From Thermococcus gammatolerans EJ3 (GTDB taxonomy: Archaea > Methanobacteriota_B > Thermococci > Thermococcales > Thermococcaceae): a stretch of DNA of 64,000 nucleotides. The notes beneath the pieces were generated by a model, which saw only the letters and a program-made list of their open reading frames with translations, had not been told where the DNA came from and did no database searches. The position numbers were made by a program, and so were the translations under genes. The stretch is taken from positions 496,001 through 560,000 of the forward strand of contig NC_012804.1 of NCBI RefSeq assembly GCF_000022365.1, in the 5' to 3' direction. Shown here piece by piece: positions 24,649-42,162 of this stretch (position 1 is its first letter; each line of letters starts with the position of its first letter).

Positions 24649-25056
24649 TCACTCCTCGATTGGGGGTTTCTCAGCCTTTTTCGTCTGAACCTGCTCCCAG
24701 AGCTCGTCGAAGTTCTCAAGAACCCTTTGCAGGGCGAGCTTTAAATCTCTAGTCCTCGTGAAAAATGCAACCTTGTTGGTTTTGTCCCTTATGCGCAGGA
24801 AGTTCGGTCCCATTCTGAAGGCAGCTAGGACATCGACGTCGAGGAGCTGGCCCACCACAGCTTTGAACTTCCTCGGGTCGCCGTGTCCTTCGTCCTCTTC
24901 CTCGAAGTCCTTAGCCCTGTTTGGCCTCTTCTCGATGAGCCTTACGCTCCCGTCCTCACAGACATCGTAGATTGCGAAGAACTCGGAATCGCCGTAGTGT
25001 GCGTCTATCAAGTGTTCATCGTCTTCCATTCCGAAGGCAACCTTAAGGCACCTCAT
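24649..25056 (-). CDS. NifX/NafY-like dinitrogenase cofactor-biosynthesis domain protein
   Basis: A 135-residue protein with the NifX-like ribonuclease-H-fold start: VAFGMEDDEHLIDAHYGDSE (about residues 6-25), then FFAIYDVCEDGSVRLIEKRPN and a central VVGQLLDVDVLAAFRMGPN (about 68-86). The family binds Fe/Mo-type cofactors in nitrogenase biogenesis; in archaea without nitrogenase it is a metal-cofactor handling protein. A charged tail (KKAEKPPIEE) ends it. The ATG at 25056 follows GGTGGTG, and a TATA-like CTTTTTAAAG is near 25087-25096. Third NifX-like gene of the window, with no palindrome of the 25734 type visible at its own promoter. Confidence 0.82.
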   Translation of the reverse strand: MRCLKVAFGMEDDEHLIDAHYGDSEFFAIYDVCEDGSVRLIEKRPNRAKDFEEEDEGHGDPRKFKAVVGQLLDVDVLAAFRMGPNFLRIRDKTNKVAFFTRTRDLKLALQRVLENFDELWEQVQTKKAEKPPIEE

Positions 25057-25111
25057 GAGCACCACCGGTGAAAGCTCGATGGGCCCTTTAAAAAGATTTA
25101 GGGAAGCCTAA

Positions 25112-25588: not shown

Positions 25589-25634
25589 AACCACCACCAA
25601 CAATTTAATAACGAAAAGTTATATAAACTTTTTG

Positions 25635-25648
25635 CGTGCTTATGCAGG
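25635..25648. promoter_or_regulatory. Palindrome copy upstream of the ferritin-like gene
   Basis: CGTGCTTATGCAGG matches the palindrome TGTGC-TTAT-GCACA at 11 of 14 positions. It lies immediately upstream of the minus-strand TATA box of the ferritin-like gene, the same place as the copies at 29101 and 36619 relative to their promoters. A site upstream of BRE/TATA would suit activation in archaea. Confidence 0.5.
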
Positions 25649-25733
25649 TGACGAATCGAGTTGGCTTTCCAGGCTGTTCCTGGGATCTGGCATGGGGGCT
25701 TTCATAAGCCACATCGAAAAGCTTTTAAATGTG

Positions 25734-25747
25734 TGTGCATATGCACA
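25734..25747. promoter_or_regulatory. Perfect 14-bp palindrome TGTGCATATGCACA in the promoter of the NifX-like gene
   Basis: A perfect inverted repeat begins four bases after the TATA-like CTTTTAAAT (25722-25730) and before the expected transcription start, so a protein bound here should repress. Close variants sit at 29101-29114 (13/14), 36619-36632 (13/14) and 25635-25648 (11/14), all at promoters of metal/Fe-S genes. The DUF134 HTH protein at 38437-38775 is the best candidate to bind it (inference). Confidence 0.75.
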
Positions 25748-25773
25748 GAATAGAAAGGAAGGGGGTGGTTGTG

Positions 25774-26382
25774 ATGAGGATCGCGATACCGACCAATGGT
25801 GGGGGGCTCGAGGACACGGTTGCGCCAGTCTTTGCCAGGGCCCCGGCCTTCGCGATCATCGACGTTGAAGGAGATGAAGTCAAGAACGTCAGGGTCATTC
25901 AGAACCCAGCGGCAAACGCGGCCGGAGGAGCTGGACCGCTCGCGGTTCAGACCCTAATCAACGAGGGCGTTGAGGCAATAGTGGCCCCGCAGGTCGGACC
26001 GAATGCACTCGGCGCCATTCAGGCTGCTGGAATAAAGCTCTACCAGGTTGCTCCAGGCACTCCAGTTGAGGAGGCCGTTAAGGCCGTGACCAGCGGAAGC
26101 GCCCCGAGCACCACCGCTCCGGCGCCGGCCTATGGGCCGTATCCCGCTGCACCGGCAACTCCAGTAACCCCCGCCGCCCCTGCATATCCAGCAACGCCAG
26201 CATACCCGGCTTACCCCGCCTACGGCTTTGGCCCCGGTTGGGGAAGAGGCTGGGGAAGAGGACGCGGCTGGGGCCGTGGATGGGGCAGAGGTGGAAGAGG
26301 CTGGGGCGCAAGGCTTGGCTACTGCCCCTGGACTGGCCGGCCCAGCAGGAGAACCCTTCGCTGGCTCTACGGCTGGTGGTGA
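25774..26382 (+). CDS. NifX/NifB-like metal-cofactor protein with Pro/Ala linker and WGRG tail
   Basis: A 202-residue protein. Residues 1-110 are a NifX-like domain: MRIAIPTNGGGLEDTVAPVF, FAIIDVEGDEVKNV, GAGPLAVQTLINEGVEAIVA and GPNALGAIQAAGIKLYQV. Then comes a proline/alanine/tyrosine linker (about 115-152) and a tail of repeated GWGRG units (about 155-180), ending in YCPWTGRPSRR and LRWLYGWW. The ATG at 25774 follows GGTGGTTGTG. It is first in a probable operon with two small membrane proteins. The tail is unusual for NifX and may bind RNA, metal or another GRG-tailed protein (inference). Confidence 0.88.
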   Translation: MRIAIPTNGGGLEDTVAPVFARAPAFAIIDVEGDEVKNVRVIQNPAANAAGGAGPLAVQTLINEGVEAIVAPQVGPNALGAIQAAGIKLYQVAPGTPVEEAVKAVTSGSAPSTTAPAPAYGPYPAAPATPVTPAAPAYPATPAYPAYPAYGFGPGWGRGWGRGRGWGRGWGRGGRGWGARLGYCPWTGRPSRRTLRWLYGWW

Positions 26383-26414
26383 TTCCTTCATTTTACCTTT
26401 CTGGAGGGTGAAAG

Positions 26415-26651
26415 ATGCCGAGAGGAATGGGGAGGGGATACGGCAGGCACTTTGGTGGGCCTTACCCCGGCTACCGGTTTTTCCCGTTCCGGGGTCTCTA
26501 CGGGTTGTTAGACCTAATTATCCTCATACTGATGCTTTACATTCTCTTTAAGCTCTTCCTCGTGGCCTCTGGCTACGTCGTGGCCCTCGTAATACTGTGG
26601 CTTATCTGGAGTGCACTGAGACCGGGCAGGGGTTTCTTTGGCCCCTGGTGA
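26415..26651 (+). CDS. Small membrane protein with GMGRG start
   Basis: A 78-residue protein starting MPRGMGRGYGRHFGGPYPGY, then one long hydrophobic region of about 40 residues (two helices), ending SALRPGRGFFGPW. Not a recognised family, but its glycine/arginine-rich start resembles the tails of the NifX-like proteins and the start of the DUF134 protein. The ATG follows GAGGGTGA 32 bases after the NifX-like gene, so it is in the same transcript. Confidence 0.75.
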   Translation: MPRGMGRGYGRHFGGPYPGYRFFPFRGLYGLLDLIILILMLYILFKLFLVASGYVVALVILWLIWSALRPGRGFFGPW

Positions 26652-26715
26652 TCTTTTCTTTGTCCAGGCGAAACATTAAAGTACTATTGAGCAAGGAATA
26701 AGAATTGGTGATCCT

Positions 26716-26904
26716 ATGCGCGGACCGTTTCCCGACCAGATAACTGTTAAGAGGTCCGAAATGCTTGCCGAAGAAAAGCAGAGCAAGTTTTTGCACGAGG
26801 GAGAGGAACTCAGGCAGTATTCAACCCTGGAAACAGTGGTAATCGTTATACTCGGACTGCTCGTCCTCGGGTTCGTGATATTCACTTTGAGAAACTACCT
26901 GTGA
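26716..26904 (+). CDS. Small single-helix membrane protein
   Basis: A 62-residue protein with a soluble charged N-terminal half (QITVKRSEMLAEEKQSKFLH) and one C-terminal membrane helix (about residues 41-58), ending RNYL: a tail-anchored layout. No family recognised. The ATG is four bases after GGTGA. It lies 64 bases after the preceding small membrane protein and probably belongs to the same operon. Confidence 0.65.
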   Translation: MRGPFPDQITVKRSEMLAEEKQSKFLHEGEELRQYSTLETVVIVILGLLVLGFVIFTLRNYL

Positions 26905-26957
26905 GGTTTCTACGCCTTCGTTCGTTCTTGCATGATGAAAAAAGGGGGTGCCGTTCT

Positions 26958-28298
26958 TCACATGCCCCCGCTTACAGCAAGCTCTATTATCTTCCTTATC
27001 TCGACGAGGAACTCCATCGGGATGTCCTTGAGCATCGGTTCGAGGAAGCCCTTGACTATGAGCTGTGTCGCTTTTTCCTCGTCAAGGCCTCTGCTCATCA
27101 GGTAGAACAGCTCTTCCTCGCGTATCTTGCCGATAGCGGCCTCGTGGCTCAGCTCGGCGTCGTCAACCTTGCTGACCAGCCCGGGGTAGGTCTCCATCGT
27201 GGCCTTGTCGCTGAGGAGCAGGGCGTCACAGCTTATGTGACCCTTCGTCTTCGGCGCTTCTGCCCTTATGATTCCGCGGGTTATCACGGTGCTCTCGTCC
27301 ATTATGACGGCCTTGCTCGCGTTTATTCCCCCAGCGCCTTTGCCCTGGAGGTACATCTCACCGCCTAAATCAACAAACCAGTCCTTCTGGCCGAGGAGAA
27401 TGCCGTTCAGCTCAATGTAACCGTTCTCCTCGACCCAGTACTTCGGATTTGCGACGTTGCTCTTCCCTGTTCCGAGGCCGACGGTGGTGTTGATGAAGCG
27501 CGCCCCCTTCCCAACCTTTGCCCTCGTCATGGGCCTCGTGTGGACGTACTCCGGCCAGTTCTGCAGGACGGTCAGCTGGCCCTTCGCCCCCTCGTGGAAG
27601 TACGCCTCGGTCATGTCGAGGTGGAGAGAGTGCTTGACGAGAATTGGAGCGGTACAGCCCTCTATGAGGTGAAACTCCGTGTTCTTCTCGGCGATTATGA
27701 TGATGTGCGGTGCCTGAGCCAATGCACTCTCCTGTATCAGGAAGAACAGGTGGAGCGGGAACGGAACCTTGAGGCCCTCTTTGACGTACAGGAAGATTCC
27801 ACCGTTCCACACAGCCGTATGGTATGCTGTAAGCTTGCTCTCGTCAACGCGGAAGAGCTTGAGGAAGTGCTCCTTGACGAGGTCGGGATACTTTCTCACA
27901 GCCTCCTCAGTTGGGAGGACTATCAGGCCCTTCTTGGCCCACTCCTGGAGGAACTGGTTGTAGATGACTCCGGTGTCGGTCTGAACAGCTAAACCAGCGA
28001 TGTACTTCTGCTCGACCTCGGAAATACCAAGCCTGTCGAGCAAAGCTTTCATCTCCGGCGGCAGGTCGTCGAGGCTCTCGATGTTCTCGGGCAGGCCCTC
28101 AATCTCGGGCTTGGCTATGAACTGGAGGAGCCTCTCCTCGCTTATGACAGGGTCGTTCAGTGGAGCCCTCTCGAACGCTTCTAACGCTTTGTACCTTATC
28201 CTCGTCATCCACTCCGGTTCCCTGTTCCTCCTCGCGAGCTCCTCAATCTGGTTCTCGATTATAGCCTTTGCATCGCTCATGGTTATCGTTTCCGTCAT
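26958..28298 (-). CDS. SufB/SufD-family Fe-S cluster assembly scaffold protein
   Basis: A 446-residue protein of the SufB/SufD family, partner of the SufC ATPase in Fe-S cluster assembly. It has a helical N-terminal region and the C-terminal right-handed beta-helix with family marks such as IIIIAEKNTEFHLIEGCTAP (about residues 199-218), LGQKDWFVDLGGEMYLQGKG (about 301-320), GHISCDALLLSD (about 354-365) and AELSHEAAIGKIREEELFYL (about 382-401). Archaea often carry this minimal SufBC set. The ATG is inside the 3' end of sufC (4-bp overlap) behind GGAGGTGGG. Confidence 0.92.
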   Translation of the reverse strand: MTETITMSDAKAIIENQIEELARRNREPEWMTRIRYKALEAFERAPLNDPVISEERLLQFIAKPEIEGLPENIESLDDLPPEMKALLDRLGISEVEQKYIAGLAVQTDTGVIYNQFLQEWAKKGLIVLPTEEAVRKYPDLVKEHFLKLFRVDESKLTAYHTAVWNGGIFLYVKEGLKVPFPLHLFFLIQESALAQAPHIIIIAEKNTEFHLIEGCTAPILVKHSLHLDMTEAYFHEGAKGQLTVLQNWPEYVHTRPMTRAKVGKGARFINTTVGLGTGKSNVANPKYWVEENGYIELNGILLGQKDWFVDLGGEMYLQGKGAGGINASKAVIMDESTVITRGIIRAEAPKTKGHISCDALLLSDKATMETYPGLVSKVDDAELSHEAAIGKIREEELFYLMSRGLDEEKATQLIVKGFLEPMLKDIPMEFLVEIRKIIELAVSGGM

Positions 28299-29035
28299 GC
28301 TCCCACCTCCTCGAAGACCCCGGCGAAGCCTTCCCTGTCTATCCTGTCGACCAGCTCCCCTCCGCCGGTTCTCACAATCCTGCCGTCCTTCATGACGTGG
28401 ACGGTAATCCTGTCCCTGTCTATGTGCTCGAGAATTCTGCCGTAATGGGTGATGAGGAGTATTGCAGTCCCCTTCCTGTGGAGCTCTTCTATCTTCCTGC
28501 TGATTACGCTGAGCGAGTCCACATCAACACCGCTGTCGGGCTCGTCAAGAATCAGGAGCTTTGGCTCGATGAGAACCGCCTGAAGGAGCTCAAGCCTCTT
28601 CCTCTCGCCGCCGGAGAAGCCAACGTTGACGTAGCGGTGCAGGTCCTCTTCCTTGAACCACAGCTCCTTCGCCTTCTCGACTATCAGGTCGTAGGCCTCC
28701 ACCGGATCGAGGCCTTTCAGCTCGACCAAAACCTGCTGGAGGAACTCGATGATCTTAACGCCCTCCACCTCAGGCGGAACCTGAAAGGCCAGAAGGATTC
28801 CGCGCTTGGCCCTCTCGTCCGGACCGAGCTCGGTGATGTCCTCTCCCTCAAAGAGAATCCTCCCGTTTCTTACCTCGTACTTCGGATGGCCCGCTATGGT
28901 AAGGGCGAGGGTTGATTTCCCGCTCCCGTTGGGCCCCATTACGACGTGGAACTCGCCGGGGTTAATCTCCAGGTCAACGCCCCTGAGTATCTCCTTGTTC
29001 TCAACGTTCACGTGAAGGTTCTCAACTTTGAGCAT
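28295..29035 (-). CDS. sufC: SufC ABC-type ATPase for Fe-S cluster assembly
   Basis: A 246-residue ABC ATPase: MLKVENLHVNVENKEILRGV, Walker A GPNGSGKSTL (about residues 34-43), Q-loop AFQVP (about 85-89), signature FSGGERKRLELLQA (about 142-155), Walker B LLILDEPDSGVD (about 162-173) and the switch histidine in LLITHYGRIL. The PDSGVD and FSGGERKR forms are typical of SufC rather than transporters. The ATG at 29035 follows GGAGGTGA; the longer frame upstream is ignored. A TATA-like GCTTAAAAAAGG is near 29064-29075 on the minus strand. Confidence 0.95.
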   Translation of the reverse strand: MLKVENLHVNVENKEILRGVDLEINPGEFHVVMGPNGSGKSTLALTIAGHPKYEVRNGRILFEGEDITELGPDERAKRGILLAFQVPPEVEGVKIIEFLQQVLVELKGLDPVEAYDLIVEKAKELWFKEEDLHRYVNVGFSGGERKRLELLQAVLIEPKLLILDEPDSGVDVDSLSVISRKIEELHRKGTAILLITHYGRILEHIDRDRITVHVMKDGRIVRTGGGELVDRIDREGFAGVFEEVGA

Positions 29036-29100
29036 TAGCTCACCTCCATGGGTAGCGTTTATGGGACCTTTTTTAAGCATTTTGGAACAGGTTTGGGTAG

Positions 29101-29114
29101 TGAGCATATGCACA
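29101..29114. promoter_or_regulatory. Palindrome copy between sufC and the second NifX-like gene
   Basis: TGAGCATATGCACA matches the perfect palindrome at 25734 at 13 of 14 positions. It ends three bases before the TATA-like CTTTTAACTT (29118-29127) of the plus-strand NifX-like gene, an upstream (activator-type) position. The divergent suf promoter is only about 30 bases away on the other side, so it could also be affected. Confidence 0.65.
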
Positions 29115-29159
29115 AGCCTTTTAACTTAGGCTCTCCTAATTCAAGTGGAGGTGGTGTTG

Positions 29160-29630
29160 ATGAGGATAATAGTCTCAACAGTGAACGGAGGCCTGGACGA
29201 TAGGGTAAACCCGGCCTTTGGTAGGACTCCAACCTTCACGATAGTCGATGTGGAGAACGGGGAGATAGTGAACGTCCAGGTTGTCCCGAATCCAGGCTAC
29301 AGCCAGCCAAGGGGGGCAGGCGTCACGGCGGCCCAGTTCTGCATAGATCAGGGGGCCGACGTCGTTATATCCGGTCAGTTCGGGCCCAACTCGAGCCAAG
29401 TTCTCCAAGCGGCGGGGATACGGATGCACTCAGCACCGCCAACCATGACGGTGAGAGAGGCCGTTGAGGCGCTCCTCCGCGGGGAGCTGGGGCCAGCTGT
29501 CTTCGGCCCGGAAGGTGGCATGGGCGGAGGAAGAGGACGTGGAATGGGAAGAGGAATGGGTAGAGGCATGGGTCGTGGTATGGGTCGCGGAAGAGGGATG
29601 GGAATGGGCGGTGGAAGGGGAGAATGGTGA
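29160..29630 (+). CDS. NifX-like metal-cofactor protein with GMGRG repeat tail
   Basis: A 156-residue protein. Residues 1-115 form a NifX-like domain (MRIIVSTVNGGLDDRVNPAF, FTIVDVENGEIVNVQVVPNP, GADVVISGQFGPNSSQVLQA), paralogous to the gene at 25774. The tail is a run of GMGRG repeats (about 122-153) ending GEW. The ATG at 29160 follows GGAGGTGGTG. A palindrome copy lies above its TATA box. It is followed within 32 bases by a metallo-beta-lactamase-fold gene, so the two probably form an operon. Confidence 0.88.
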   Translation: MRIIVSTVNGGLDDRVNPAFGRTPTFTIVDVENGEIVNVQVVPNPGYSQPRGAGVTAAQFCIDQGADVVISGQFGPNSSQVLQAAGIRMHSAPPTMTVREAVEALLRGELGPAVFGPEGGMGGGRGRGMGRGMGRGMGRGMGRGRGMGMGGGRGEW

Positions 29631-29662
29631 GCTCCCCAGTATTTTCTTTATCGGTGATTGAG

Positions 29663-30475
29663 ATGAAACTCACGATCCTCTTCGAGAACCACGCAGGGTA
29701 TAGAAAGGGTTTGATAGGTTATCACGGCTTTTCTGCCATAGTCGAGCACAATGGGAGCAAAGTTCTTGTTGATACGGGCACGGACGGAAAGGTCCTGCTG
29801 GGGAATATGGCAGAGCTAGGCTTTTCTCCGGAGGAAATCGACGCGGTCTTCCTAACTCACGGCCACTACGACCACACGGGTGGTCTACGGGCATTCCTCG
29901 AAGGCAGGGAGAAGGGCATTGACATCCACGCCCACCCGGGAATCTTCGCGAGGAGGATAGCGCTGAAGCCGTACAGGCGGGAGATAGGGATACCCTTCAA
30001 AAAGGAGGAGCTTGAGGAACTTGGGGCAAAGTTCCACCTCTCCCCGAAACCTGTTGAGTTTTTACCGGGATTTATCAGTTCCGGCGAGATCGAAAGAAAA
30101 ACCTGGGATAGGGCCGTTGGTTACCTCGTTCTGGACGGTAAAGCCGTTCCCGACCCGGTTCTTGATGACACTGCACTCATCGTCGATCTAGGCGATGGCA
30201 TAGCGGTCATCACCGGCTGCGGCCACAGCGGAATAATCAACATAGCAGAGCACGCCGTGAGGCTCACGGGAAAGCCGATAAGGGCCCTCATCGGCGGGTT
30301 CCACCTCAGGGGAGCAGGAAAAGCTCTCCTAAATGATGCGGCCAGGGGGCTGAGTGAACTGGGCGTTGAAAGACTTTACGCCGGCCACTGTACTGGAATA
30401 GAGGAGTTTGCATTCCTCTCGTCAACCCTCGGCAACGTCGAAGGGCTTCACGTTGGCAAGGTCATCGAGCTTTAG
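29663..30475 (+). CDS. Metallo-beta-lactamase-fold hydrolase (MJ0296/DHPS-like)
   Basis: A 270-residue MBL-fold protein. Visible metal ligands are the HGHYDHTGG motif (about residues 67-75), the histidine of ITGCGHSGIINI (about 192) and the GGFHLRG and AGHCTG regions near the end. The layout resembles the archaeal branch annotated as 7,8-dihydropterin-6-methyl-aminobenzene-phosphate synthase-like. Related MBL proteins often sit beside NifX-like genes. The ATG at 29663 is five bases after GGTGA. Its last 14 bp overlap the convergent small gene. Confidence 0.87.
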   Translation: MKLTILFENHAGYRKGLIGYHGFSAIVEHNGSKVLVDTGTDGKVLLGNMAELGFSPEEIDAVFLTHGHYDHTGGLRAFLEGREKGIDIHAHPGIFARRIALKPYRREIGIPFKKEELEELGAKFHLSPKPVEFLPGFISSGEIERKTWDRAVGYLVLDGKAVPDPVLDDTALIVDLGDGIAVITGCGHSGIINIAEHAVRLTGKPIRALIGGFHLRGAGKALLNDAARGLSELGVERLYAGHCTGIEEFAFLSSTLGNVEGLHVGKVIEL

Positions 30476-30743
30476 CGAACCCTTTTTCCTCAAGCTCTTT
30501 GGCTAATAGTGCAACTGTCAAAATACCCTCTAAAATGCTTCCAAAGTTCGGAACCTCCCCGAACTGGGCGAAGAGCGTTCCGTAGCGAGGGTGCCACGCA
30601 TCGACCTGCTTTCTGTCCTTGGCCGTTATGATGTAGACGACCCACTCCTTTTCCTCAAGCCACTCAACGAGCCTCCAGGCGTCGGCCATATCTTTAACCT
30701 CAAGGTCGAACTTCTCGCGAACTTTTTCCACGAGTTCCTCCAT
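30462..30743 (-). CDS. Small hypothetical protein
   Basis: A 93-residue protein, MEELVEKVREKFDLEVKDMA at the start, with a central WVVYIITAKDRKQVDAWHPR and a C-terminal helix. Probably a small alpha/beta soluble protein. No family recognised. The ATG at 30743 is five bases after GGTGG. It stands alone, converging with the MBL-fold gene and followed by the TauE/SafE gene's stop region. Confidence 0.7.
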   Translation of the reverse strand: MEELVEKVREKFDLEVKDMADAWRLVEWLEEKEWVVYIITAKDRKQVDAWHPRYGTLFAQFGEVPNFGSILEGILTVALLAKELEEKGFAKAR

Positions 30744-30784
30744 AGTCTCCACCGATTGAGCTTTGGATGAGAGTTAATAAACCT

Positions 30785-31516
30785 TCACAGGAGCATCCTG
30801 AGCGCGACCAGGATTAGAACTCCCGCAAAGGCCCTCCTGAGGGTTTTGGGGTGAACTCTGTGGGCCGTTAAGGCACCGAGCCTGCCCCCGATTATGAGCC
30901 CCGGGGCGAGGAGGAAGGCCATGTGTAAATCAACCTGTCCGAGGCGGTAGTGCTCAATTGCTCCCGCTAGGGCCGTGAAAAAGAGCGCAAAGCTCGAGGT
31001 TCCAACGGCGTACCTCATAGGTATGCCCACGAAGGTGTGGAAGAGCGGAACGTTGAGAACGCCGCCACTTATGCCCAAAAGCCCGCTCACGAGGCCCGAG
31101 AGGATGCCAACAAGGGGAACGCGGGAGTAGTGAACCGCGCCCTCTTCGTCGTGAGGTCTGCATTTCTTCCTGGCCATTGTGTAGGCGAGGTAAAGGAGAA
31201 GGAACGCGAAGACCAGCCTGAGCCCCCTCTCAGGGAGTCTGGATGAGAGGTAAGCACCAAGAACAGCGAATGGGGCGGAAAAGACCTCCTTCAGGAGAAC
31301 GACGCGGTAAAGGACCGCACCCCTTCGAATGTGGGTCAGCGAGGCGGAGAGCGAGCTGAGGACTATGCATGTTAAACTCGTGCCGATGGCGAGATGTATC
31401 GGCTCGCCGAGGAGAACGAGGGTCGGCACTATCAGGAAGCCACCGCCGACACCGAGGAGACCCGCTATAAATCCAATGCTGAGGCCGACGATGAAGTCGA
31501 GCAGGTACTGGAGCAT
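30785..31516 (-). CDS. TauE/SafE-family permease (paralogue 1)
   Basis: A 243-residue integral membrane protein with eight or so helices and two family repeats: GFIAGLLGVGGGFLIVPTLV (about residues 15-34) and GILSGLVSGLLGISGGVLNVP. Family members export or import sulfite, sulfoacetate or similar anions; the substrate here is not predictable. The ATG at 31516 has no ribosome binding site, but a TATA-like TTTTTAAGAG lies about 25 nt upstream, so the mRNA is probably leaderless. It is a close paralogue of the gene just upstream. Confidence 0.9.
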   Translation of the reverse strand: MLQYLLDFIVGLSIGFIAGLLGVGGGFLIVPTLVLLGEPIHLAIGTSLTCIVLSSLSASLTHIRRGAVLYRVVLLKEVFSAPFAVLGAYLSSRLPERGLRLVFAFLLLYLAYTMARKKCRPHDEEGAVHYSRVPLVGILSGLVSGLLGISGGVLNVPLFHTFVGIPMRYAVGTSSFALFFTALAGAIEHYRLGQVDLHMAFLLAPGLIIGGRLGALTAHRVHPKTLRRAFAGVLILVALRMLL

Positions 31517-31547
31517 GGGAAAAGGTTGAGGGGGTCTCTTAAAAACC

Positions 31548-32312
31548 TCACGGGATTCCAAAGCCGAGGCCCTTCAGAATCATTCTTAGGGCCAGGAGAA
31601 ACATCACAATGGCGAAGGCCTTTTTCAGGGATGAAGCCTTCGTCCTCCTTGCTATCCCCGCCCCGAGCTGGGCCCCGATTATAAGGCCAGGAACGAGGAG
31701 GACGAGCCACTGCGTTTCCACGTTGCCCATCGCGTAGTGCTTGAGCGCTCCTGCTAAAGCAGTGAAAACAATCGCAAAGCTTGATGTGGCAACGGCGTAG
31801 TGTATTGGTAAGCCTAGGTAAGTCAGGAACGGCACGTTGATGATTCCTCCTCCCACGCCGAGCAGACCGCTCGCGATTCCCGCGAAGAAGCCTCCTATGG
31901 GGACGAGCCAGTAGTTCACCCTAACATCCTCAAGCCTGACCTCTTGGGGCTCCGCCGTCTTCTTCCTGTATATTCTTATCGCGACCACGACCAGCGCGAG
32001 GCCGAAGATGACCTTTAGTTGTGAGGCGCTGATGAAGGATGTAAGCCATGCCCCTATGTAAGCGCCTATAACAGCCGTCGAGGCCAGCAGAAGTCCGACC
32101 CTGTAGTGTATCCTCTTCTGTCGTGAATAGGCTATTGTCGAGCTGAGCGAAGTGAAAACCACAGCTGCGCTCGAAGTTCCGACCGCGTGGTGCATCTCGA
32201 CGCCGAGCAGGTTGAGCGTCGGCACTACCAGGAAGCCCCCTCCGAGGCCGAACAGTGCCGCGAGGATTCCGATGAAGACCCCGACCGCGAAGTAGGAGAG
32301 GTACTTCAGCAT
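31548..32312 (-). CDS. TauE/SafE-family permease (paralogue 2)
   Basis: A 254-residue membrane protein with the same two repeats as its neighbour: GILAALFGLGGGFLVVPTLN (about residues 15-34) and GFFAGIASGLLGVGGGIINV (about 145-164). The two adjacent permeases clearly arose by tandem duplication. The ATG at 32312 follows GAGGGATGG and overlaps the stop of the VapC gene (TAATG), so this copy may be read from the VapBC transcript. Confidence 0.9.
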   Translation of the reverse strand: MLKYLSYFAVGVFIGILAALFGLGGGFLVVPTLNLLGVEMHHAVGTSSAAVVFTSLSSTIAYSRQKRIHYRVGLLLASTAVIGAYIGAWLTSFISASQLKVIFGLALVVVAIRIYRKKTAEPQEVRLEDVRVNYWLVPIGGFFAGIASGLLGVGGGIINVPFLTYLGLPIHYAVATSSFAIVFTALAGALKHYAMGNVETQWLVLLVPGLIIGAQLGAGIARRTKASSLKKAFAIVMFLLALRMILKGLGFGIP

Positions 32313-32743
32313 TAACCATCCCTCAAAATGCGTCGTATGGCGTCGCTTATGCTCCATACTTCAATAATACCCGCACGGGAAACCTTCTCAAAGTGCCTGT
32401 CATTGGTAACGAGAATTGCCCCGCTTTTCAGACACATTGCCGCGTGGACGGCATCCGCGAGTTGGGTTTCGGGAAAATACGGGAGAACGCGAAGCACATC
32501 TTCTCTGCTGGGATTCACAATCGTGACCTGTCTGCTGATGACGTCATAGAAGTCCAGCGCGTTGAGCTTTTCGGCGTATTTTCGGTATTCAGCCATCAAG
32601 ACGTCGTTTGCCACCAAAACGTAGCGTTTTCTGGTTAAAAAATGGAGTAAAAGCTCGGTCGTGTCAGTCCAACCCCGTTTAACTGCCGCTATGAAGACAT
32701 TTGTGTCGAGCAGGAATTTATAGTCTGTAGAGTTCCTTCGCAA
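32312..32743 (-). CDS. PIN-domain ribonuclease toxin (VapC-type)
   Basis: A PIN-domain protein of about 143 residues with FLLDTNVFIAAVKRG (first acidic residue), LMAEYRKYAEKL (second), ETQLADAVHAAMCLKSGA (third) and ILVTNDRHFEKV (fourth). The start is uncertain: the TTG at 32743, behind an AGAGGGG sequence, overlaps the end of the antitoxin gene; a TTG at 32774-32776 is an alternative. Toxin RNase paired with the AbrB-type antitoxin just upstream. Confidence 0.88.
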   Translation of the reverse strand: MRRNSTDYKFLLDTNVFIAAVKRGWTDTTELLLHFLTRKRYVLVANDVLMAEYRKYAEKLNALDFYDVISRQVTIVNPSREDVLRVLPYFPETQLADAVHAAMCLKSGAILVTNDRHFEKVSRAGIIEVWSISDAIRRILRDG

Positions 32744-32984
32744 CTCTGTTCCCCTCTTCCTCGGTTTCAGCCTCAAGCTCCTCCAAATTTACTTCTCTTG
32801 AGTTCCTGACGAGCTTTTCGAGCATCTTCTTGACGTTGAAGCGCCTCAGGACTATCGTATCGCCGTCTATCTCGGTGACGAGGAACTCTTCACCGGGCTT
32901 GATGTTGAGCCTCCTCCGAACGTCCTTTGGGATTACGACCCTGCCCTTGGAGTCCACCTTTGTTATTCCCACTTTTCCCACCAT
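32718..32984 (-). CDS. SpoVT/AbrB-type antitoxin (VapB)
   Basis: An 88-residue protein with the swapped-hairpin AbrB start: ITKVDSKGRVVIPKDVRRRL (residues 7-26), NIKPGEEFLVTEIDGDTIVL, then a long acidic helix (VNLEELEAETEEEGNRVAKE) to neutralise the toxin. The ATG at 32984 has a TATA-like CTTTAAAAC about 25 nt upstream and no clear binding site, so it is probably leaderless. It overlaps the PIN toxin gene and autoregulation is usual for the family. Confidence 0.9.
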   Translation of the reverse strand: MVGKVGITKVDSKGRVVIPKDVRRRLNIKPGEEFLVTEIDGDTIVLRRFNVKKMLEKLVRNSREVNLEELEAETEEEGNRVAKELYRL

Positions 32985-33015
32985 TCCTACTCTTGGTCAT
33001 CGGTGTTTTAAAGCC

Positions 33016-33474
33016 TTACCATTCAAAGGCAACGGCCTCCACGAGCTTTACCAGGGCCTCAAGGTCCTCCTCCGTGAAGTCCTTCGGAAGGCCGATTCCC
33101 TCCCCGTCCACGCGCTGGTATTTGATGCCGTTGCGCTCCGCTATCTTAACGACTTTCTCGGGAACATCCCCGATTACCGGTCCCTCTCCAGGCTTTCCTT
33201 CGAAGAGTCGAAGCCTGAGGAGCGTTCCCCCAAAGTCGGGCTCGAAGCCGAAGGCAAAGACGTTCCTCCCAGGGACGTCGTGGTCGGTTAAATCCGCTAT
33301 CGCCTTTACCGCAACTTCCACCAGCGGCCACTCCTCAGGTTTCTCAATGATGAAGGCGAGCCTGTCGGAGAAGTCTCCCTCATCGTCGCCGAACTCAAAG
33401 ATTAACCCCTTATCGGTTTCAGTAATTTCGCCGTACGGTTCGAGAAGGCCCTTCAGCCTTTTCCTCCAATCCAT
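33016..33474 (-). CDS. Conserved-looking acidic protein of unknown function
   Basis: A 152-residue acidic alpha/beta protein starting MDWRKRLKGLLEPYGEITET, with FEFGDDEGDFSDRLAFIIEK, FAFGFEPDFGGTLLRLRLFE and a C-terminal helix TEEDLEALVKLVEAVAFEW. I recognise it only as a Thermococcales-type hypothetical protein. It lies ten bases after the stop of the hydroxyacid dehydrogenase gene on the same strand, so co-transcription is likely. Confidence 0.78.
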   Translation of the reverse strand: MDWRKRLKGLLEPYGEITETDKGLIFEFGDDEGDFSDRLAFIIEKPEEWPLVEVAVKAIADLTDHDVPGRNVFAFGFEPDFGGTLLRLRLFEGKPGEGPVIGDVPEKVVKIAERNGIKYQRVDGEGIGLPKDFTEEDLEALVKLVEAVAFEW

Positions 33475-33484
33475 TTAAACCACC

Positions 33485-34486
33485 TCAGAGCATCTTTACT
33501 TCCTCGGGCGGACGAACCTTCAGGACTTCACGGTTAACGAGCGTCTCCGGAACTTCACCGCGCAGAACTGCTAAGAGGTTTCTAACCGCCTGAAAGCCCA
33601 TGTCCTTCATCGCTTCCTTCGAGAGGCCCGCGTAGTGGGGTGTTAGGACAGTCTCCCACTCGTAGTCGAAAAGCTCGTGCTCCCGAACGGGTTCGTTCTC
33701 GAAGACGTCGGTCGCGTAGCCCTTCAGCCTTCTCTCTTTGAGGGCTTTAACAAGGGCCTTCTCGTCCACCAGCGTTCCGCGCCCGATGTTCACCAGGTAC
33801 TTACCCTCAAGGAGCTTCAGCCTCTCCTCGTTGATGATGTGGTAGGTTTCCTTCGTCGCTGGGAGGGCGAGGACTACAATGTCGCTCTCCTTCAGCACGT
33901 CGTCAAGGGGAAGGTACCTCGCGCCAACTTCCTCCTCGATATCGGGCTTCCGCGAGCGCGACCAGTAGAGGATTTCAGTTCCCATGGCCTTCATTCTCCT
34001 CGCTATGGCCTTTCCTATTGCCCCCATGCCGAGGATTCCAACGGTTTTGCCGTAAACCGTCTCGATGCCCTTGAAACCGCTCCAGACCGTCCTGTGGGAG
34101 TCCCACTTTCCAGAGCGAATGAACCTGTCGGCGTAAGCTATCTTACGGAGAAGTGCTATGGTTAGGCCAACGGCGAACTCTGCCACTGCCTCGCTGAGAA
34201 CACCGGCCACTTTGGTGACGTAGATTCCCTTTCTCGTTGCGGTCTCGACGTCAACGTGGTCGTAGCCCGCTGAATGACAGCTTATGACCTTCAGCCTCCC
34301 GGCCCTCTCGAGGACTTCACCTGGAACGGGGTTGAGCGGGGAAACTATCAGCCCGTCGTACTTTCCGATGACCTTTTTAAGCTCCTCAACGCTCGGATAG
34401 AGGATTACGTCAACGTCCGCCCATTTCTTGAGTTCCTCAAGGGGTTTGCTCTTCATCTTGAAGAGGACGGCCACCTTGGGTCTCAT
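33485..34486 (-). CDS. D-isomer-specific 2-hydroxyacid dehydrogenase
   Basis: A 333-residue NAD(P)-dependent dehydrogenase. The nucleotide site is TVGILGMGAIGKAIARRMKA (about residues 149-168). The catalytic residues are the arginine of LVNIGRGTLVDE (about 236), the glutamate of DVFENEPV (about 265) and the histidine of VLTPHYAGLS (about 285). Members reduce glyoxylate, hydroxypyruvate or branched 2-oxoacids; the substrate cannot be read. The ATG at 34486 follows GGTGATAGC. Confidence 0.92.
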   Translation of the reverse strand: MRPKVAVLFKMKSKPLEELKKWADVDVILYPSVEELKKVIGKYDGLIVSPLNPVPGEVLERAGRLKVISCHSAGYDHVDVETATRKGIYVTKVAGVLSEAVAEFAVGLTIALLRKIAYADRFIRSGKWDSHRTVWSGFKGIETVYGKTVGILGMGAIGKAIARRMKAMGTEILYWSRSRKPDIEEEVGARYLPLDDVLKESDIVVLALPATKETYHIINEERLKLLEGKYLVNIGRGTLVDEKALVKALKERRLKGYATDVFENEPVREHELFDYEWETVLTPHYAGLSKEAMKDMGFQAVRNLLAVLRGEVPETLVNREVLKVRPPEEVKML

Positions 34487-34532
34487 GCTATCACCTTTAA
34501 GATCTTTATCGAAAAGCTAAAAATAGTTTTGG

Positions 34533-35237
34533 TCAGCCTTTGAGTCCTTTAACGATCTCTATGACGTCCTTTAAACTGGAAATAACGAAGTCACAGTTTT
34601 CCCATAACTCCCTCCTCTCGCCGCTTGGATCTAGGAGAGCACTGAGCATCCCCACGTTTTTGGCTCCAACACAGTCTTTTGCTGGGTTATCCCCAATATA
34701 GAGCGCTTCCTCCGGTTTAACCCCAGCTTTTTCGAGGGCGAGCTGAAACGGCCTTGGATGGGGCTTGTAAAAGCCTGCCTCCTCGCTCGTCGTTATGCTG
34801 TCGAAGAGCTCGTAGATGCCGAGGGCTCCCAGGTGGTGCTCTATGTAGTCGTTGTCCGAGTCAGTTACGATTCCAACGTGCAGTCCGAGTCCCTTGAGGG
34901 CTTTTATCGTCTCAACAGCGTCCGGAAAGAGCTCGCCGTACCTAGCGTGCATCTTGAGGCTGATCTCCCAGAAGTCCTCCGGTACTGTGAAGCCGTGCCT
35001 CTCCGCAACGCGCCTGAGGGCCTCGGTGTCAACGTCCCTTATTTTCACGTAGGGTTTACCGGCTAGCCCTTTGAAGAGGGCCGAGCTTTCTTTCTCGTAC
35101 TCCTCCCAGATCGCCACCGGATCCAGGTCTTCCCGTCCACTCCTTCTCAGAACCTCCCTGATGATGTTCAGGTGGGTTCTGTTTTCTCCCCTCTTTGTTA
35201 TTAGGGTGCCCACGAAGTCAAAGAAGACGGCCTTCAT
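34533..35237 (-). CDS. HAD-superfamily hydrolase (PH1421-like)
   Basis: A 234-residue HAD phosphatase-like enzyme, very similar in layout to the Pyrococcus PH1421 protein: motif 1 AVFFDFVGTLI (nucleophile D7), motif 2 VGIVTDSDNDY, motif 3 lysine in EAGFYKPHPRPF and motif 4 YIGDNPAKDCVGA. The second aspartate of the usual DxD is valine (DFV), as in its Pyrococcus relative, so this is a family trait. The ATG at 35237 is five bases after GGTGA. Single gene with its own TATA near 35268. Confidence 0.9.
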   Translation of the reverse strand: MKAVFFDFVGTLITKRGENRTHLNIIREVLRRSGREDLDPVAIWEEYEKESSALFKGLAGKPYVKIRDVDTEALRRVAERHGFTVPEDFWEISLKMHARYGELFPDAVETIKALKGLGLHVGIVTDSDNDYIEHHLGALGIYELFDSITTSEEAGFYKPHPRPFQLALEKAGVKPEEALYIGDNPAKDCVGAKNVGMLSALLDPSGERRELWENCDFVISSLKDVIEIVKGLKG

Positions 35238-35390
35238 GTCCTTCACCGATCGGCCTACGTTCCGTCCCTTAAAGCCCTTCCGTCATCGCGCCGGTTTTGG
35301 GTCGAAATTTTATCGGGGATTTGGCACAAAGACGGAAAATCTTTAGAAAACGTTTTATTGACCATCGCCTTCCAGTGCACCGGTGGTAAC

Positions 35391-35606
35391 ATGGAGGCAA
35401 TACTCCTCGTCTGGGGAGTCCGGGACGAGGTGTTGAAGAAGATCCCCGTCGAGGGGAGCTGGCTCTACGGTGAGTACGACTTCATAGCAAAGGTTGAATT
35501 TGAGGACGAGGCGGAGATGGAGAGCTTTGAGAGGTTCCTGAGATCCCTCATCAACGGCAACACCTACAAGCTCCTCCCGGTTATAGCTTCCGCCACCTCT
35601 CTCTAA
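35391..35606 (+). CDS. Small AsnC/RAM-like ligand-binding-type protein
   Basis: A 71-residue protein starting MEAILLVWGVRDEVLKKIPV, with YGEYDFIAKVEFEDEAEMES and LLPVIASAT. The beta-alpha-beta order resembles a stand-alone RAM/Lrp effector domain without an HTH; the assignment is tentative. The ATG at 35391 follows GGTGGTAAC, with a TATA-like GTTTTATTG near 35352-35360. It lies 55 bases before the radical SAM gene. Confidence 0.7.
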   Translation: MEAILLVWGVRDEVLKKIPVEGSWLYGEYDFIAKVEFEDEAEMESFERFLRSLINGNTYKLLPVIASATSL

Positions 35607-35661
35607 TTTTGTGATTTCGCAAGGTTTATACGTTTTTAGGGCAACCTAATGCGGTGGTGGC

Positions 35662-36615
35662 ATGATAGCATTCGGTCCGGTTCCCTCGAGAAGGCTGGGT
35701 AAAAGCCTCGGCGTGAACAACATCCCCGATAAAGTTTGTAGCTACGCGTGTGTGTACTGCCAGATCGGTAGAACCCTCAGGATGGAGATAGAGAGGCGGC
35801 CATTCTATGATCCCGCTCTGATCCTTGAAGAGGTCGGGGAAAAGGTTGAGGAGGCCCGGGAGAGGGGGGAGAGGATAGACTATATAACCTTCGTTCCGGA
35901 TGGAGAACCAACCCTTGATTCAAACCTCGGCCTAGAAGTCGAACTCCTCCGCGATCTGGGTGTGCCCCTGGCAATACTGACTAACTCGTCCCTTATCTGG
36001 CGCGAGGATGTCAGGAACGATCTCCTTGCCTTTGATTTTGTCTCACTCAAACTCGATGCGGTCAGCGAGCCTCTTTGGAGGAAGGTAGACAGGCCCCACA
36101 AGGCACTCAAACTCGATGCGATCCTGGAAGGAATGCTGGAGTTCCGGGAGTCGTTTGATGGCAGGCTCGTAACGGAGACGATGCTCATCGATGGTGTAAA
36201 CTACGAGGGAGAGCTCGAGAGGATCGCCGAGTTCCTATCCCGGCTTGATCCCGATGTTGCTTACATAGCGGTTCCAACGAGGCCACCCGCTGAGCCCTGG
36301 GTCCGGCCGGCAAGGGAGGAGACCATAAACATGGCTTTCCAGCTCTTCGCAGAGGCCCTGGGTGAGGACAGGGTTGAGTACCTCATCGGCTACGAGGGGA
36401 ACGCCTTCGCTTTCACGGGAAACGTGGAGGATGACATACTGAGCATAACCTCAGTTCATCCCATGAGGGAGGACGCGCTCAGGGAGCTCCTCAGGAAGGC
36501 GAACGCCGATTGGGACGTCGTTGAGAAACTCCTCGACGAGGGAAAGCTCATAGAGCTTGAGTACAACGGCAGAAGGTTCTACATGCGGAGGCTGAGGAGC
36601 CGGGAGTTTCGCTGA
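35662..36615 (+). CDS. Radical SAM protein with C-terminal winged-helix-like domain
   Basis: A 317-residue radical SAM enzyme. The cluster motif is CSYACVYC (CxxxCxxC, residues about 27-34), preceded by the FGPVPSRRLGKSLGVN start known from COG0731-like proteins. FVPDGEPTLDSN is the SAM-binding GEP-type motif. The C-terminal ~70 residues (SVHPMREDALRELLRKANAD and onward) look like a small winged helix. The reaction is unknown. The position next to the MinD/Mrp pair suggests a role in metal-cofactor assembly. The ATG follows GGTGGTGGC. Confidence 0.88.
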   Translation: MIAFGPVPSRRLGKSLGVNNIPDKVCSYACVYCQIGRTLRMEIERRPFYDPALILEEVGEKVEEARERGERIDYITFVPDGEPTLDSNLGLEVELLRDLGVPLAILTNSSLIWREDVRNDLLAFDFVSLKLDAVSEPLWRKVDRPHKALKLDAILEGMLEFRESFDGRLVTETMLIDGVNYEGELERIAEFLSRLDPDVAYIAVPTRPPAEPWVRPAREETINMAFQLFAEALGEDRVEYLIGYEGNAFAFTGNVEDDILSITSVHPMREDALRELLRKANADWDVVEKLLDEGKLIELEYNGRRFYMRRLRSREFR

Positions 36616-36618
36616 GGC

Positions 36619-36632
36619 TGTGCTTATGCACA
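36619..36632. promoter_or_regulatory. Palindrome copy upstream of the MinD/Mrp pair
   Basis: TGTGCTTATGCACA has perfect 5-bp arms and differs from the palindrome at 25734 by one base. It ends two bases before the TATA-like CCTTAAAAATAA (36635-36646) of the MinD-like gene that starts at 36677. It lies only four bases after the radical SAM stop codon. Confidence 0.7.
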
Positions 36633-36676
36633 AACCTTAAAAATAATTCGGTTACCCTAATTCTGGAGGTGAGAGC

Positions 36677-37546
36677 TTGCAGATAGCGGTTAGTGGGGGT
36701 AAGGGAGGCACCGGAAAGTCGACCGTTGCGATCAACCTCGCGGTTGAGCTCGCAAAGCGGTTCAAGCTGGTTTTAGCGGACCTGGACGTGGAGGCACCAA
36801 ACGACCACCTGCTTTTGGGTGTTGACCTGGCCAACGAGGAACCGGTCAACCAGTTCATGCCCCGCTTCGACTACTCGAAGTGCACCAAGTGCAGGAAGTG
36901 CGCCGAAGTCTGCGAGGAGCACGCGATCATAACACTGAAGGACGGAACACCGTTCCTGATGCCAACGCTCTGTTCCGGCTGCCGGGCCTGCGAGATAGTC
37001 TGCCCAGTTCCAGGGGCCATCCTCGAGGGTTCAAGGTTGATCGGCCATACCTACGTAACAGAAACACACTACGGCTTTACCCTCGTCACTGGAAAGCTCA
37101 GGGAAGGAGAGGAGCGCTCGATGCCCCTCGTCGTCGAGGCCAAAAGGCGCGCGAGAAACCTTGACTACGAGCTCATGATGGTTGATACCGCCGCTGGGAC
37201 GGGCAACACAGTCTCAAAGGCAATTGAAGGTTCAGAGCTCCTAATCGCGGTTACCGAACCGACTCCGCTCGGAATTCACGACACCGAGCTCATCCTCCAG
37301 CTCGGAAGGCTGATGAACCTCAAGACGTGGGTCGTGGTCAACAGGGCAGACCTCGGAGATGTTGGACGGGTCAGGGAAATAGCGGGGAGGTACGGCGCGG
37401 AGATAGTCGCTGAAATCCCCTACAGTGAGAGCATCGTGAAAAGCTACGTCTCGGGAAGACCCATTGTCCTGGAGGAAGTCCCGGAGGCGGAAATCTTCCG
37501 CGAGCTGGCTGAAAAGGTTGCCAACTTCCTCGGGGGTGATGAGTGA
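36677..37546 (+). CDS. MinD/Mrp-type P-loop ATPase with inserted ferredoxin domain (1)
   Basis: A 289-residue deviant-Walker ATPase: VSGGKGGTGKST (residues 5-16), then an inserted bacterial-type ferredoxin with CTKCRKCAEVCEE (about 73-85) and CSGCRACEIVCPVPG (about 101-115), i.e. two 4Fe-4S cysteine sets, then VDTAAGTGNTVSKAI and VVVNRADLGDV (nucleotide binding). Such paired ATPases occur in the bacterial ORP complex and in Fe-S/Mo cofactor systems. It starts at a TTG behind GGAGGTGA and is coupled to the paralogue that follows. Confidence 0.92.
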   Translation: MQIAVSGGKGGTGKSTVAINLAVELAKRFKLVLADLDVEAPNDHLLLGVDLANEEPVNQFMPRFDYSKCTKCRKCAEVCEEHAIITLKDGTPFLMPTLCSGCRACEIVCPVPGAILEGSRLIGHTYVTETHYGFTLVTGKLREGEERSMPLVVEAKRRARNLDYELMMVDTAAGTGNTVSKAIEGSELLIAVTEPTPLGIHDTELILQLGRLMNLKTWVVVNRADLGDVGRVREIAGRYGAEIVAEIPYSESIVKSYVSGRPIVLEEVPEAEIFRELAEKVANFLGGDE

Positions 37547-38436
37547 TGCAGGTCGCGATTGCGAGCGGTAAGGGCGGTGTTGGAAAGAGCACGATAACGG
37601 CCTCACTCCTCTATCTCCTGAAGGACAGGTATAAGCTCATAGCGGTTGATGCGGATGCCGAAGCGCCGAACCTTGGTTTACTCCTTGGAGTTGAGGAGTG
37701 GGAGGAGGAGAGGGAGCACTTTGGGGCTAAAGTGGCCCGCATAAACCCCGAGAGCTGCGTCCGCTGCGGGATCTGCTATGAGAGGTGCCCCTACGAGTGC
37801 ATCTACATGGACGATGAAGGTAACTACGTCGTCAACGAGCTAACCTGCGAGGGTTGCAACGTTTGCGGTCTCGTCTGCCCGGTTCCGGGCACGATAACCC
37901 TTGAACAGGTTCGCTCCGGCGTCATCCGGAGGGCTACAACCAAGTACGGCTTTCCTATAATCTCGGCCCAGCTCGACGTTGGCAAGCCTGAGAGCGGTAA
38001 ACTCGTCACCGAGGAAAAGGAGTGGGCGAAAAAGCTGATGGACGAGCTTAACTTGGAGCACATGATCGTGGATTCTGCTGCCGGAATTGGCTGTCAGGTC
38101 ATAGCAAGCCTCGGTGGAGCGGATGTTGCGATACTCATAGCAGAGCCAACACCGGCATCGCTGAGCGACGTTCAGCGCGCCTACAAGGTCGTCCAGCACT
38201 TCAGGGAGCCGGCCTATCTGATAATCAACAAGGCCGACCTGAACCCTGGCTTTACAAAGCTTGGGGAATGGGCCGAGGCCGAGGGGATTCCGGTCATAGG
38301 TGAGGTTCCGTACGACAGGGCCATCCCCAAGAGTATGGCAATGCTCAAGCCCGTCGTCGAGGTCTTTCCGGAGAGTCCTGCGAGCAAAGCGCTCAAGGAG
38401 ATCGCAGATGTTATCGCTGAGGAGATCCTCGGCTGA
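37546..38436 (+). CDS. MinD/Mrp-type P-loop ATPase with inserted ferredoxin domain (2)
   Basis: A 296-residue paralogue of the previous gene: IASGKGGVGKSTI (residues 5-17), ferredoxin insert with CVRCGICYERCPYEC (about 68-82) and CEGCNVCGLVCPVPG (about 101-115), then VDSAAGIGCQVIASLGG and LIINKADLNPG. Probably forms a heterodimer with its neighbour. The ATG at 37546 sits in the overlap with the upstream stop (TGATG), showing translational coupling. Its stop abuts that of the convergent DUF134 regulator with no gap. Confidence 0.92.
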   Translation: MQVAIASGKGGVGKSTITASLLYLLKDRYKLIAVDADAEAPNLGLLLGVEEWEEEREHFGAKVARINPESCVRCGICYERCPYECIYMDDEGNYVVNELTCEGCNVCGLVCPVPGTITLEQVRSGVIRRATTKYGFPIISAQLDVGKPESGKLVTEEKEWAKKLMDELNLEHMIVDSAAGIGCQVIASLGGADVAILIAEPTPASLSDVQRAYKVVQHFREPAYLIINKADLNPGFTKLGEWAEAEGIPVIGEVPYDRAIPKSMAMLKPVVEVFPESPASKALKEIADVIAEEILG

Positions 38437-38775
38437 TCACTCCTCCATTTTTGGCGCCTCGTTTCCCTGGGGGAGTATTACAAGCTCCCTTCCCTCAACG
38501 ATCATCTGGGCAACCTTTTTCCTTGCCGAGTTCAGGGCCCTCCAGACCGTGCCCCTTGAGACCCCCATCCTTTTCCCGGCCTCCTCCTGGGTCAATCCCT
38601 CGTAATCCACGAGCCTCAAAGCTTCGAACTCCTCGTAACTCATGAATATGGGTGGCTTTGGTGGGACCATCGGCGGAAGTGCAGGATAGAAGTGCTTGAC
38701 CTGGGGAATGAAGCCGATCATCCTCATCTTTCTTCTCCTTCCTCGTCCCCTGCCCCATCCCATTCCTCCAGGCAT
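38437..38775 (-). CDS. DUF134-family HTH DNA-binding protein
   Basis: A 112-residue protein of the DUF134 family. It starts with a glycine/arginine-rich MPGGMGWGRGRGRRRKMRMI, then IGFIPQVKHFYPAL, MSYEEFEALRLVDYEGLTQE and the HTH EEAGKRMGVSRGTVWRALNS (about residues 66-85). DUF134 genes are typically next to NifX-like and MinD-like genes. I propose it as the regulator acting on the TGTGC..GCACA palindromes; this is inference from linkage. The ATG at 38775 is five bases after GGTGA. Confidence 0.9.
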   Translation of the reverse strand: MPGGMGWGRGRGRRRKMRMIGFIPQVKHFYPALPPMVPPKPPIFMSYEEFEALRLVDYEGLTQEEAGKRMGVSRGTVWRALNSARKKVAQMIVEGRELVILPQGNEAPKMEE

Positions 38776-41856: not shown

Positions 41857-42162
41857 CTACTGCCCGATCTCGAGCTTTGGTTTCTTTCTCCCGATCCTGT
41901 ACCTGACAACGTAGCGCCCGTGCTCAAAATCGTCCTCTTCAGCTTCCAGAACCTCAACAGGCTCAAGCTCAAGGCCCAAATCCATCGCCTCCCACTTGAT
42001 ATCGTCGAAGTAATCATAGAGCCCGCAGGTGGCGCAGAAGGAGCCTTCGAACTCCATGATAACTTCATCTCCCTCAAGCTTTAGAACCCTCGCCCTGGCC
42101 TCGCTCCCGTGAAGGCGGTTGAACTCCTCAATAACCTTCCTGAGCTTTTCCTCAGCTTCCAT
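41857..42162 (-). CDS. Small CxxC protein of unknown function
   Basis: A 101-residue acidic protein starting MEAEEKLRKVIEEFNRLHGS, with a single CATC pair (FCATCGLYDYFDDI, about residues 43-56) that could be redox-active or bind metal with a partner. It ends KKPKLEIGQ. No family recognised. The ATG at 42162 follows GGTGGGAGA. It is convergent with the phosphoesterase and divergent from the helicase gene. Confidence 0.75.
   Translation of the reverse strand: MEAEEKLRKVIEEFNRLHGSEARARVLKLEGDEVIMEFEGSFCATCGLYDYFDDIKWEAMDLGLELEPVEVLEAEEDDFEHGRYVVRYRIGRKKPKLEIGQ

Follow-up and report, generated by a model that had tools for sequence, protein, structure and literature searches.

A conserved palindrome, predicted to be a DUF134 operator, at iron-sulfur storage and carriage genes of Thermococcus gammatolerans EJ3 and its relatives

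The ORP operons of Desulfovibrio vulgaris encode paired MinD-type ATPases that carry ferredoxin motifs, NifX/ORP proteins, and an Mrp/NBP35 carrier (Orp3/4/5/8 and MrpORP; PMC6345978). In Pyrococcus furiosus, IssA (SipA, PF2025) consists of a PF02579/IPR003731 domain, a Pro-rich stretch, and a cationic Gly/aromatic tail with one tail Cys, and sipA/issA is raised only when sulfide and enough iron are both present (PMC5524996); SipA also increases on sulfur in T. onnurineus (PMC4463584) and in Palaeococcus (PMC6981617). SurR, an archaeal regulator of P. furiosus, is described as having activating as well as repressing roles in sulfur metabolism (as cited in PMC4463584). In this study, we analysed a 64,000-nucleotide stretch of Thermococcus gammatolerans EJ3 (positions 496001-560000 of the 2.05-Mb genome; hereafter the window), in which genes resembling both the ORP and the IssA systems share a 14-bp promoter palindrome and a gene for a DUF134 protein lies next to them. 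We estimate at about 85% the probability that this palindrome is the operator through which DUF134 controls a regulon for iron-sulfur storage and carriage, with an iron box as the second input. SurR belongs to another protein family than DUF134 and recognizes another site.

In gene content, the likeness to the ORP systems lies in a MinD-type pair resembling Orp3/Orp4, in NifX/ORP-type proteins, and in an Mrp/NBP35 carrier (PMC6345978). MinD1 (36677-37546, plus strand, TTG start) and MinD2 (37546-38436, plus strand) are P-loop ATPases with ferredoxin inserts, both containing Fer4 dicluster matches with two [4Fe-4S] ferredoxin motifs each. Two PF02579 proteins, NifX-A (25774-26382, plus strand) and NifX-B (29160-29630, plus strand, with a GRGMGRG tail), give weak matches to ORP/MrpORP models and to the solved structure of ORP, and their genes share the palindrome with the MinD pair. 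A fused MrpORP was not found in the stretch examined. Whereas the Desulfovibrio operons are divergent and have sigma-54 promoters (PMC6345978), the Thermococcus genes form scattered units with promoters composed of a transcription factor B recognition element (BRE) and a TATA box, which also carry an operator of DUF134 type together with an iron box. The ORP-like gene set proposed in the earlier note is supported, with paired ferredoxin-bearing MinD ATPases and PF02579/NifX genes under a common predicted operator; the set works like an ORP gene set and is not classed as an ORP operon. NifX-A carries a PF02579 domain, a Pro-rich stretch, and a GWGRGW tail with a single Cys, which is the domain plan described for IssA (PMC5524996), and its best solved relative is MTH1175. 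As judged by domain plan and description rather than by comparison with the PF2025 sequence, NifX-A appears to fit IssA. Because of this fit, the resemblance of the MinD pair to Orp3/Orp4, and the iron boxes in the promoters, iron-sulfur storage and carriage is preferred here over the metal-cofactor (Mo/W/Cu) label originally given to these genes.

The exact palindrome, TGTGCATATGCACA (25734-25747), lies between the TATA box (~25722-25731) and the start of the NifX-A gene, the position expected of a repressor, and this class of site is conserved in ~30 Thermococcaceae promoters. Two further predicted DUF134 operators, each with one mismatch, are located directly above the BRE/TATA of NifX-B (TGAGCATATGCACA, 29101-29114) and of the MinD pair (TGTGCTTATGCACA, 36619-36632); the BRE/TATA of NifX-B, AGCCTTTTAAC (29115-29125, plus strand), was read from the sequence and aligned across relatives. 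A fourth site ahead of the ferritin-like gene had been claimed at an 11-13/14 match, but this sequence (CGTGCTTATGCAGG, 25635-25648) matches at only 10 of 14 positions and is too weak to be counted. It sits a few bases farther from its own TATA box than the other sites do and is retained in one close relative. Three of the four claimed sites thus stand, and the ferritin-like gene, rejected as a clear member of the regulon, is at best a weak candidate.

A pattern search of the whole genome yielded five sites with 0-1 mismatch; at two mismatches there are no sites, and the 31 found at three represent background. At up to three mismatches, the forward pattern gave 36 matches versus 12 for a reversed control. 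For at most one mismatch, an order-1 Markov model predicts 0.0012 sites in the window, where three are seen, and 0.038 in the genome, where five are seen, so that the sites are not randomly distributed. Two of the five had been overlooked: a strong site at genome position 790167, ahead of another NifX-like gene, and an off-class site at 1110618 (TGTGCATGTGCACA; L017:4619), beside genes for a small membrane protein and an unknown open reading frame. The latter was set aside as a regulon member because its flanking genes belong to no recurring class.

The sites are conserved at orthologous promoters throughout the family and are not random genome-wide, so that the idea survived those refutation tests of the earlier note that could be computed. 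Sites with at most one mismatch are present in 58 of 61 Thermococcus genomes, and when one centre base is left free, 92 of 94 Thermococcaceae genomes contain a site, none of the 74 genomes of good quality lacking one. The exact palindrome is present in 85 of the 94 Thermococcaceae genomes and absent from all 21 genomes examined from the rest of the phylum, with no control matches. Among 86 distinct matches examined in context, 82 are in promoters of five gene classes (named by Pfam), namely NifX-A, NifX-B, NifX-C, MinD/Mrp, and a CDF cation exporter, which supports the view of these scattered genes as one regulon. The remaining four comprise one match within a coding sequence and three without assignment (the 1110618 site, L039:1501 at a transporter-like gene, and L175:1501 near a moaC-like gene). 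The palindrome is real and regulatory.

The proposed fixed position relative to the TATA box was also borne out across Thermococcaceae relatives, with two placements according to gene class. In NifX-A (issA) and CDF promoters, the palindrome starts within a few bases below the TATA box, and in NifX-B, MinD1, and NifX-C promoters it abuts the BRE from above. The same promoters carry a second motif, overlooked in the earlier note, TTNGGN4CCNAA, which is a DtxR-type box. At up to one mismatch, this box lies directly above the TATA box in 28 of 31 NifX-A promoters, and below it in 13/13 relatives for NifX-B (offset +24/+25) and in 10/10 for MinD1 (offset +27/+28); in the window, the boxes of the two latter genes are TTAGGCTCTCCTAA (29126-29139) and TTCGGTTACCCTAA (36647-36660), respectively. 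At issA, nifX-B, and minD1, the iron box is therefore always across the TATA box from the palindrome, with the order swapped between the classes, an arrangement newly noted here. The TTAGGN4CCTAA boxes of feoA and a DtxR-family gene are a feature in common with archaeal DtxR-family iron regulons; what differs in the promoters described here is the presence of a second operator across the TATA box. We take such boxes to be linked to FetR-type archaeal iron regulons.

On this geometry, DUF134 bound between the TATA box and the start point, as at issA and CDF, would act as a repressor, and at issA it would probably do so until its signal is received, with an iron regulator above the TATA box helping when iron is sufficient; this would amount to an AND gate, which fits the published control of issA by sulfide plus iron. 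At nifX-B, minD1, and nifX-C, a protein abutting the BRE from above could either recruit TBP/TFB or hinder them, and for activation from these upstream sites the chances appear evenly balanced and uncertain. The DtxR-type iron regulator acting across the TATA box at issA, nifX-B, and minD1, in swapped order, would make of these promoters a two-input switch responding to iron and to the DUF134 signal. In the strongest competing explanation, DUF134 binds but represses everywhere, its upstream sites blocking the access of TFB/TBP, and we regard this as a serious possibility falling somewhat short of even odds. In its favour, the upstream sites of the archaea are in contact with the BRE, and the NifX and DUF5320 genes of bacteria (L201, L202, L241, and L253) have their -35 box overlapped by one site and a second site after the -10 box, which is a repressor layout. 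Against it, the two fixed site positions track gene class, the iron box is on the opposite side in each class, and a position just above the BRE is a common one for archaeal activators.

The DUF134 gene (38437-38775, minus strand) encodes a protein of 112 residues matching PF02001 at 88.7 bits (cut-off, 27). DUF134 corresponds to PF02001 and UPF0251; Pfam lists its function as unknown, and NCBIfam calls the Thermococcus member a 'hypothetical protein'. The Pfam model Sigma70_r4 also matches the protein. Its AlphaFold model contains a confident helix-turn-helix (predicted local distance difference test score >94 in the core), in which the residues that vary among DUF134 proteins start the recognition helix (S73-R74-G75-T76-V77-W78-R79), Arg74 being the first and Trp78 following one turn on. 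The nearest solved structures superposed on this predicted fold are sigma-factor region 4 domains (root-mean-square deviation of 0.7-0.9 Å over ~47 residues). The fold is thus shared with sigma-70 region 4 and extracytoplasmic function sigma-4 domains, but DUF134 is short and stand-alone, has a predicted palindromic operator, and is used with archaeal TATA promoters. With only a region-4-like fold in its 112 residues and no region 2, it was rejected as a sigma factor. PF02001 is single-copy in 55 of the 61 Thermococcus genomes.

A set of 80 archaeal and bacterial DUF134 loci was also examined; 40 of them contain a NifX-like gene, 38 a MinD/Mrp gene, and 31 a DUF5320 gene. Variants of the form TGNN[C/T]ATAT[G/A]NNCA are present at DUF134 genes and at their NifX/DUF5320/Mrp neighbours in other archaea and in bacteria. 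TG..CA palindromes reach a density of 0.573/kb within 300 bp above DUF134 genes, versus 0.080/kb in the rest of the same loci, a 7-fold excess (14 found versus 2.0 expected, P ~2e-8), and seven control palindrome types show no rise in these regions of the 80 loci. The core ATAT was found in 35 cases versus 2-15 for any other core. In these loci, the genes targeted are DUF134 itself and NifX-like, DUF5320, Mrp/MinD, CDF, and metallo-beta-lactamase genes.

When sites were chosen without fixing base 4 or 5, near-palindromy apart, the operator bases were found to follow the recognition helix S-x1-x2-T-x3-x4-R. Gln at x1 is accompanied by T and Arg by C at half-site base 5 (35/35 loci), and His/Tyr at x4 by A and Gln/Trp by G at base 4 (24/24 loci); because few changes on the DUF134 tree underlie this code, Fisher values for these counts overstate independence. 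The operator predicted for S-Q-P-T helices, TGAATATATATTCA, gave seven matches in 6 of the 21 genomes of other families of the phylum, including four DUF134 genes and two Mrp genes, one of them divergent from a DtxR-type gene, versus two matches in the 94 Thermococcaceae genomes; this comparison is not fully independent because the motif was first seen in loci including the same Theionarchaeon. The second DUF134 of Syntrophaceticus schinkii, whose helix (SRGTFQR) has the S-R-G-T start of Thermococcaceae, has an exact TGTGCATATGCACA just below the -10 box of its own promoter. More DUF134 paralogs fit the code, with one (L326, AQSTFQR) being ambiguous. In a scan of 12 bacterial genomes with TGNNCATATGNNCA, most of the nine matches examined lie in or at unrelated coding sequences, and two are at promoters, those of the SRGT-helix DUF134 gene and of a Fur-family gene. 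The latter match, TGGGCATATGCCCA (L289:1479), is just below the -10 region of the Fur-family regulator gene in the same bacterium as the SRGT-helix DUF134. In another family of the phylum (L258:1501), an Mrp/NBP35 gene and a divergent gene for a DtxR-type regulator flank a T-type operator, a layout that again links the iron and DUF134 circuits.

From the sites, their conservation and geometry, the co-variation, and the predicted fold, we infer that a DUF134 dimer would bind the palindrome, reading each half-site TG-x3-x4-x5-AT through its sigma-region-4-like helix-turn-helix. Arg74 would read C5 (Gln at this position would read T5), Gly75 would go with T3, and Trp78 with G4. The role of DUF134 as the regulator, already suggested in the earlier note, is supported by this co-variation, by the concentration of palindromes above DUF134 genes, and by the identical operator of an S-R-G-T helix in a bacterium, and binding is very probable on these sequence-based grounds. 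The alternative that the palindrome is bound by a different transcription factor, one that co-evolves with both DUF134 and the neighbouring genes, could account for the five draft genomes that contain sites and no DUF134 match, but the same three lines of evidence, the first extending across phyla, render it improbable. The genes make up a regulon that is real and conserved, and whose candidate regulator is well supported and belongs to a family with no assigned function. The members of this regulon in Thermococcaceae would be the IssA-like gene together with two other genes of NifX type, the MinD/NBP35-type pair, and, in many of the species, the CDF cation exporter.

Several observations weigh against control by DUF134 together with an iron regulator. 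Six of the 61 Thermococcus genomes, all drafts, contain no PF02001 match, for which incomplete assembly is the likely explanation, and five of them are those still containing sites. No palindrome is present at the DUF134 gene itself in ~40 Thermococcaceae loci, and autoregulation was rejected for this family accordingly. On the DUF134 tree, the base-5 and base-4 codes reflect only ~5 and ~4 changes, respectively, few of them on well-supported branches. The DUF134 genes of Selenomonadales (L329, L330, and L233) are preceded by TGAAATATATTTCA, with the core TATA instead of ATAT, and many bacterial loci in the 80-locus set have no clear site near the DUF134 gene. With regard to the second input, the loose iron-box pattern gives about as many matches across the genome as its control does (52 versus 50), so that it is placement and conservation that make the case for the iron box; in the issA promoter of the window itself (~25700-25733) and in that of one close relative (L086), no iron box is recognizable, although most relatives have one. 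Control by the DtxR-type iron regulator alone, with the palindrome minor or structural, would explain the iron boxes at issA, nifX-B, and minD1 but is very improbable, since the NifX-C class has the palindrome and no iron box, the window's issA keeps an exact palindrome without a clear box, and the palindrome is the best conserved promoter element. Chance palindromes or functionless conserved flanks, for which nothing was found in the main set and which could explain at most the off-class 1110618 site, are contradicted by the Markov expectation for the window and by promoter placement and conservation in 94 genomes, and their probability is negligible.

In the favoured reading, with DUF134 and the iron regulator acting jointly, the DUF134 signal is perhaps sulfide or iron-sulfide, iron-sulfide sensing being speculative. 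The Thermococcaceae DUF134 domain lacks Cys, whereas many other DUF134 proteins have a C-terminal Cys ribbon, and the window's protein has no Cys. Instead, it has an IssA-like N-terminal tail, GMGWGRGRGRRR, which was seen only in Thermococcaceae among the DUF134 proteins examined; a GWGRGRG tail of this kind is present in 36 of 39 loci, the other three being not cleanly resolved. This tail may be the sensor. A more specific and rather unlikely idea is that Thermococcaceae DUF134 senses thioferrate, the iron-sulfide polymer itself, the GMGWGRGRGRRR tail, similar in composition to the thioferrate-binding tail of IssA, binding the anionic polymer and pulling DUF134 off the DNA. If so, the iron box and DUF134 site would make issA an AND gate for iron and sulfide. 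The gene for a small membrane protein directly after the IssA-like gene (26415-26651) begins MPRGMGRGYGR, like the N-terminal tail of Thermococcus DUF134.

In line with the earlier note, a search of openly available papers, subscription titles excluded, turned up no description of such an archaeal system; DUF134/UPF0251/COG1342 receives passing mentions only, and no named issA regulator was found in the published accounts of sulfide/iron control examined. The widespread DUF134 family thus gains a predicted operator, a residue-to-base code, and a putative regulon spanning Archaea and Bacteria, and a candidate regulator is proposed for issA, whose control by sulfide and iron is published. The analysis also supplies a context for the DUF5320, NifX-like, and MinD-type genes of anaerobes, and the swapped two-operator promoters allow a simple genetic test of iron/sulfide integration in tractable archaea.

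The iron layer extends to other genes of the window and genome. DtxR-type boxes are located directly above the BRE/TATA of a fourth PF02579 gene (box, 25098-25111; gene, 24649-25056, minus strand) and below the TATA box of a radical-SAM gene (box, 35636-35649; gene, 35662-36615), which precedes the MinD pair. In the genome, TTAGGN4CCTAA lies below the TATA boxes of both feoA and the DtxR-family gene, and DtxR-type boxes are also present at ZIP-type transporter and peroxiredoxin genes (names read from translations). Another box, TTAGGCTAACCGAA (42206-42219), is near the TATA box of a minus-strand gene (41857-42162) for a CATCGLYDYFDD protein with no Pfam match. A metallo-beta-lactamase-fold gene (29663-30475) follows NifX-B. 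In NifX-C promoters (L016:4806-5612 and relatives), a third inverted repeat, TGAA-N5-6-TTCA, occupies the place of the iron box below the TATA box, and in T. gammatolerans an ArsR/PadR-like gene lies just upstream of the NifX-C gene.

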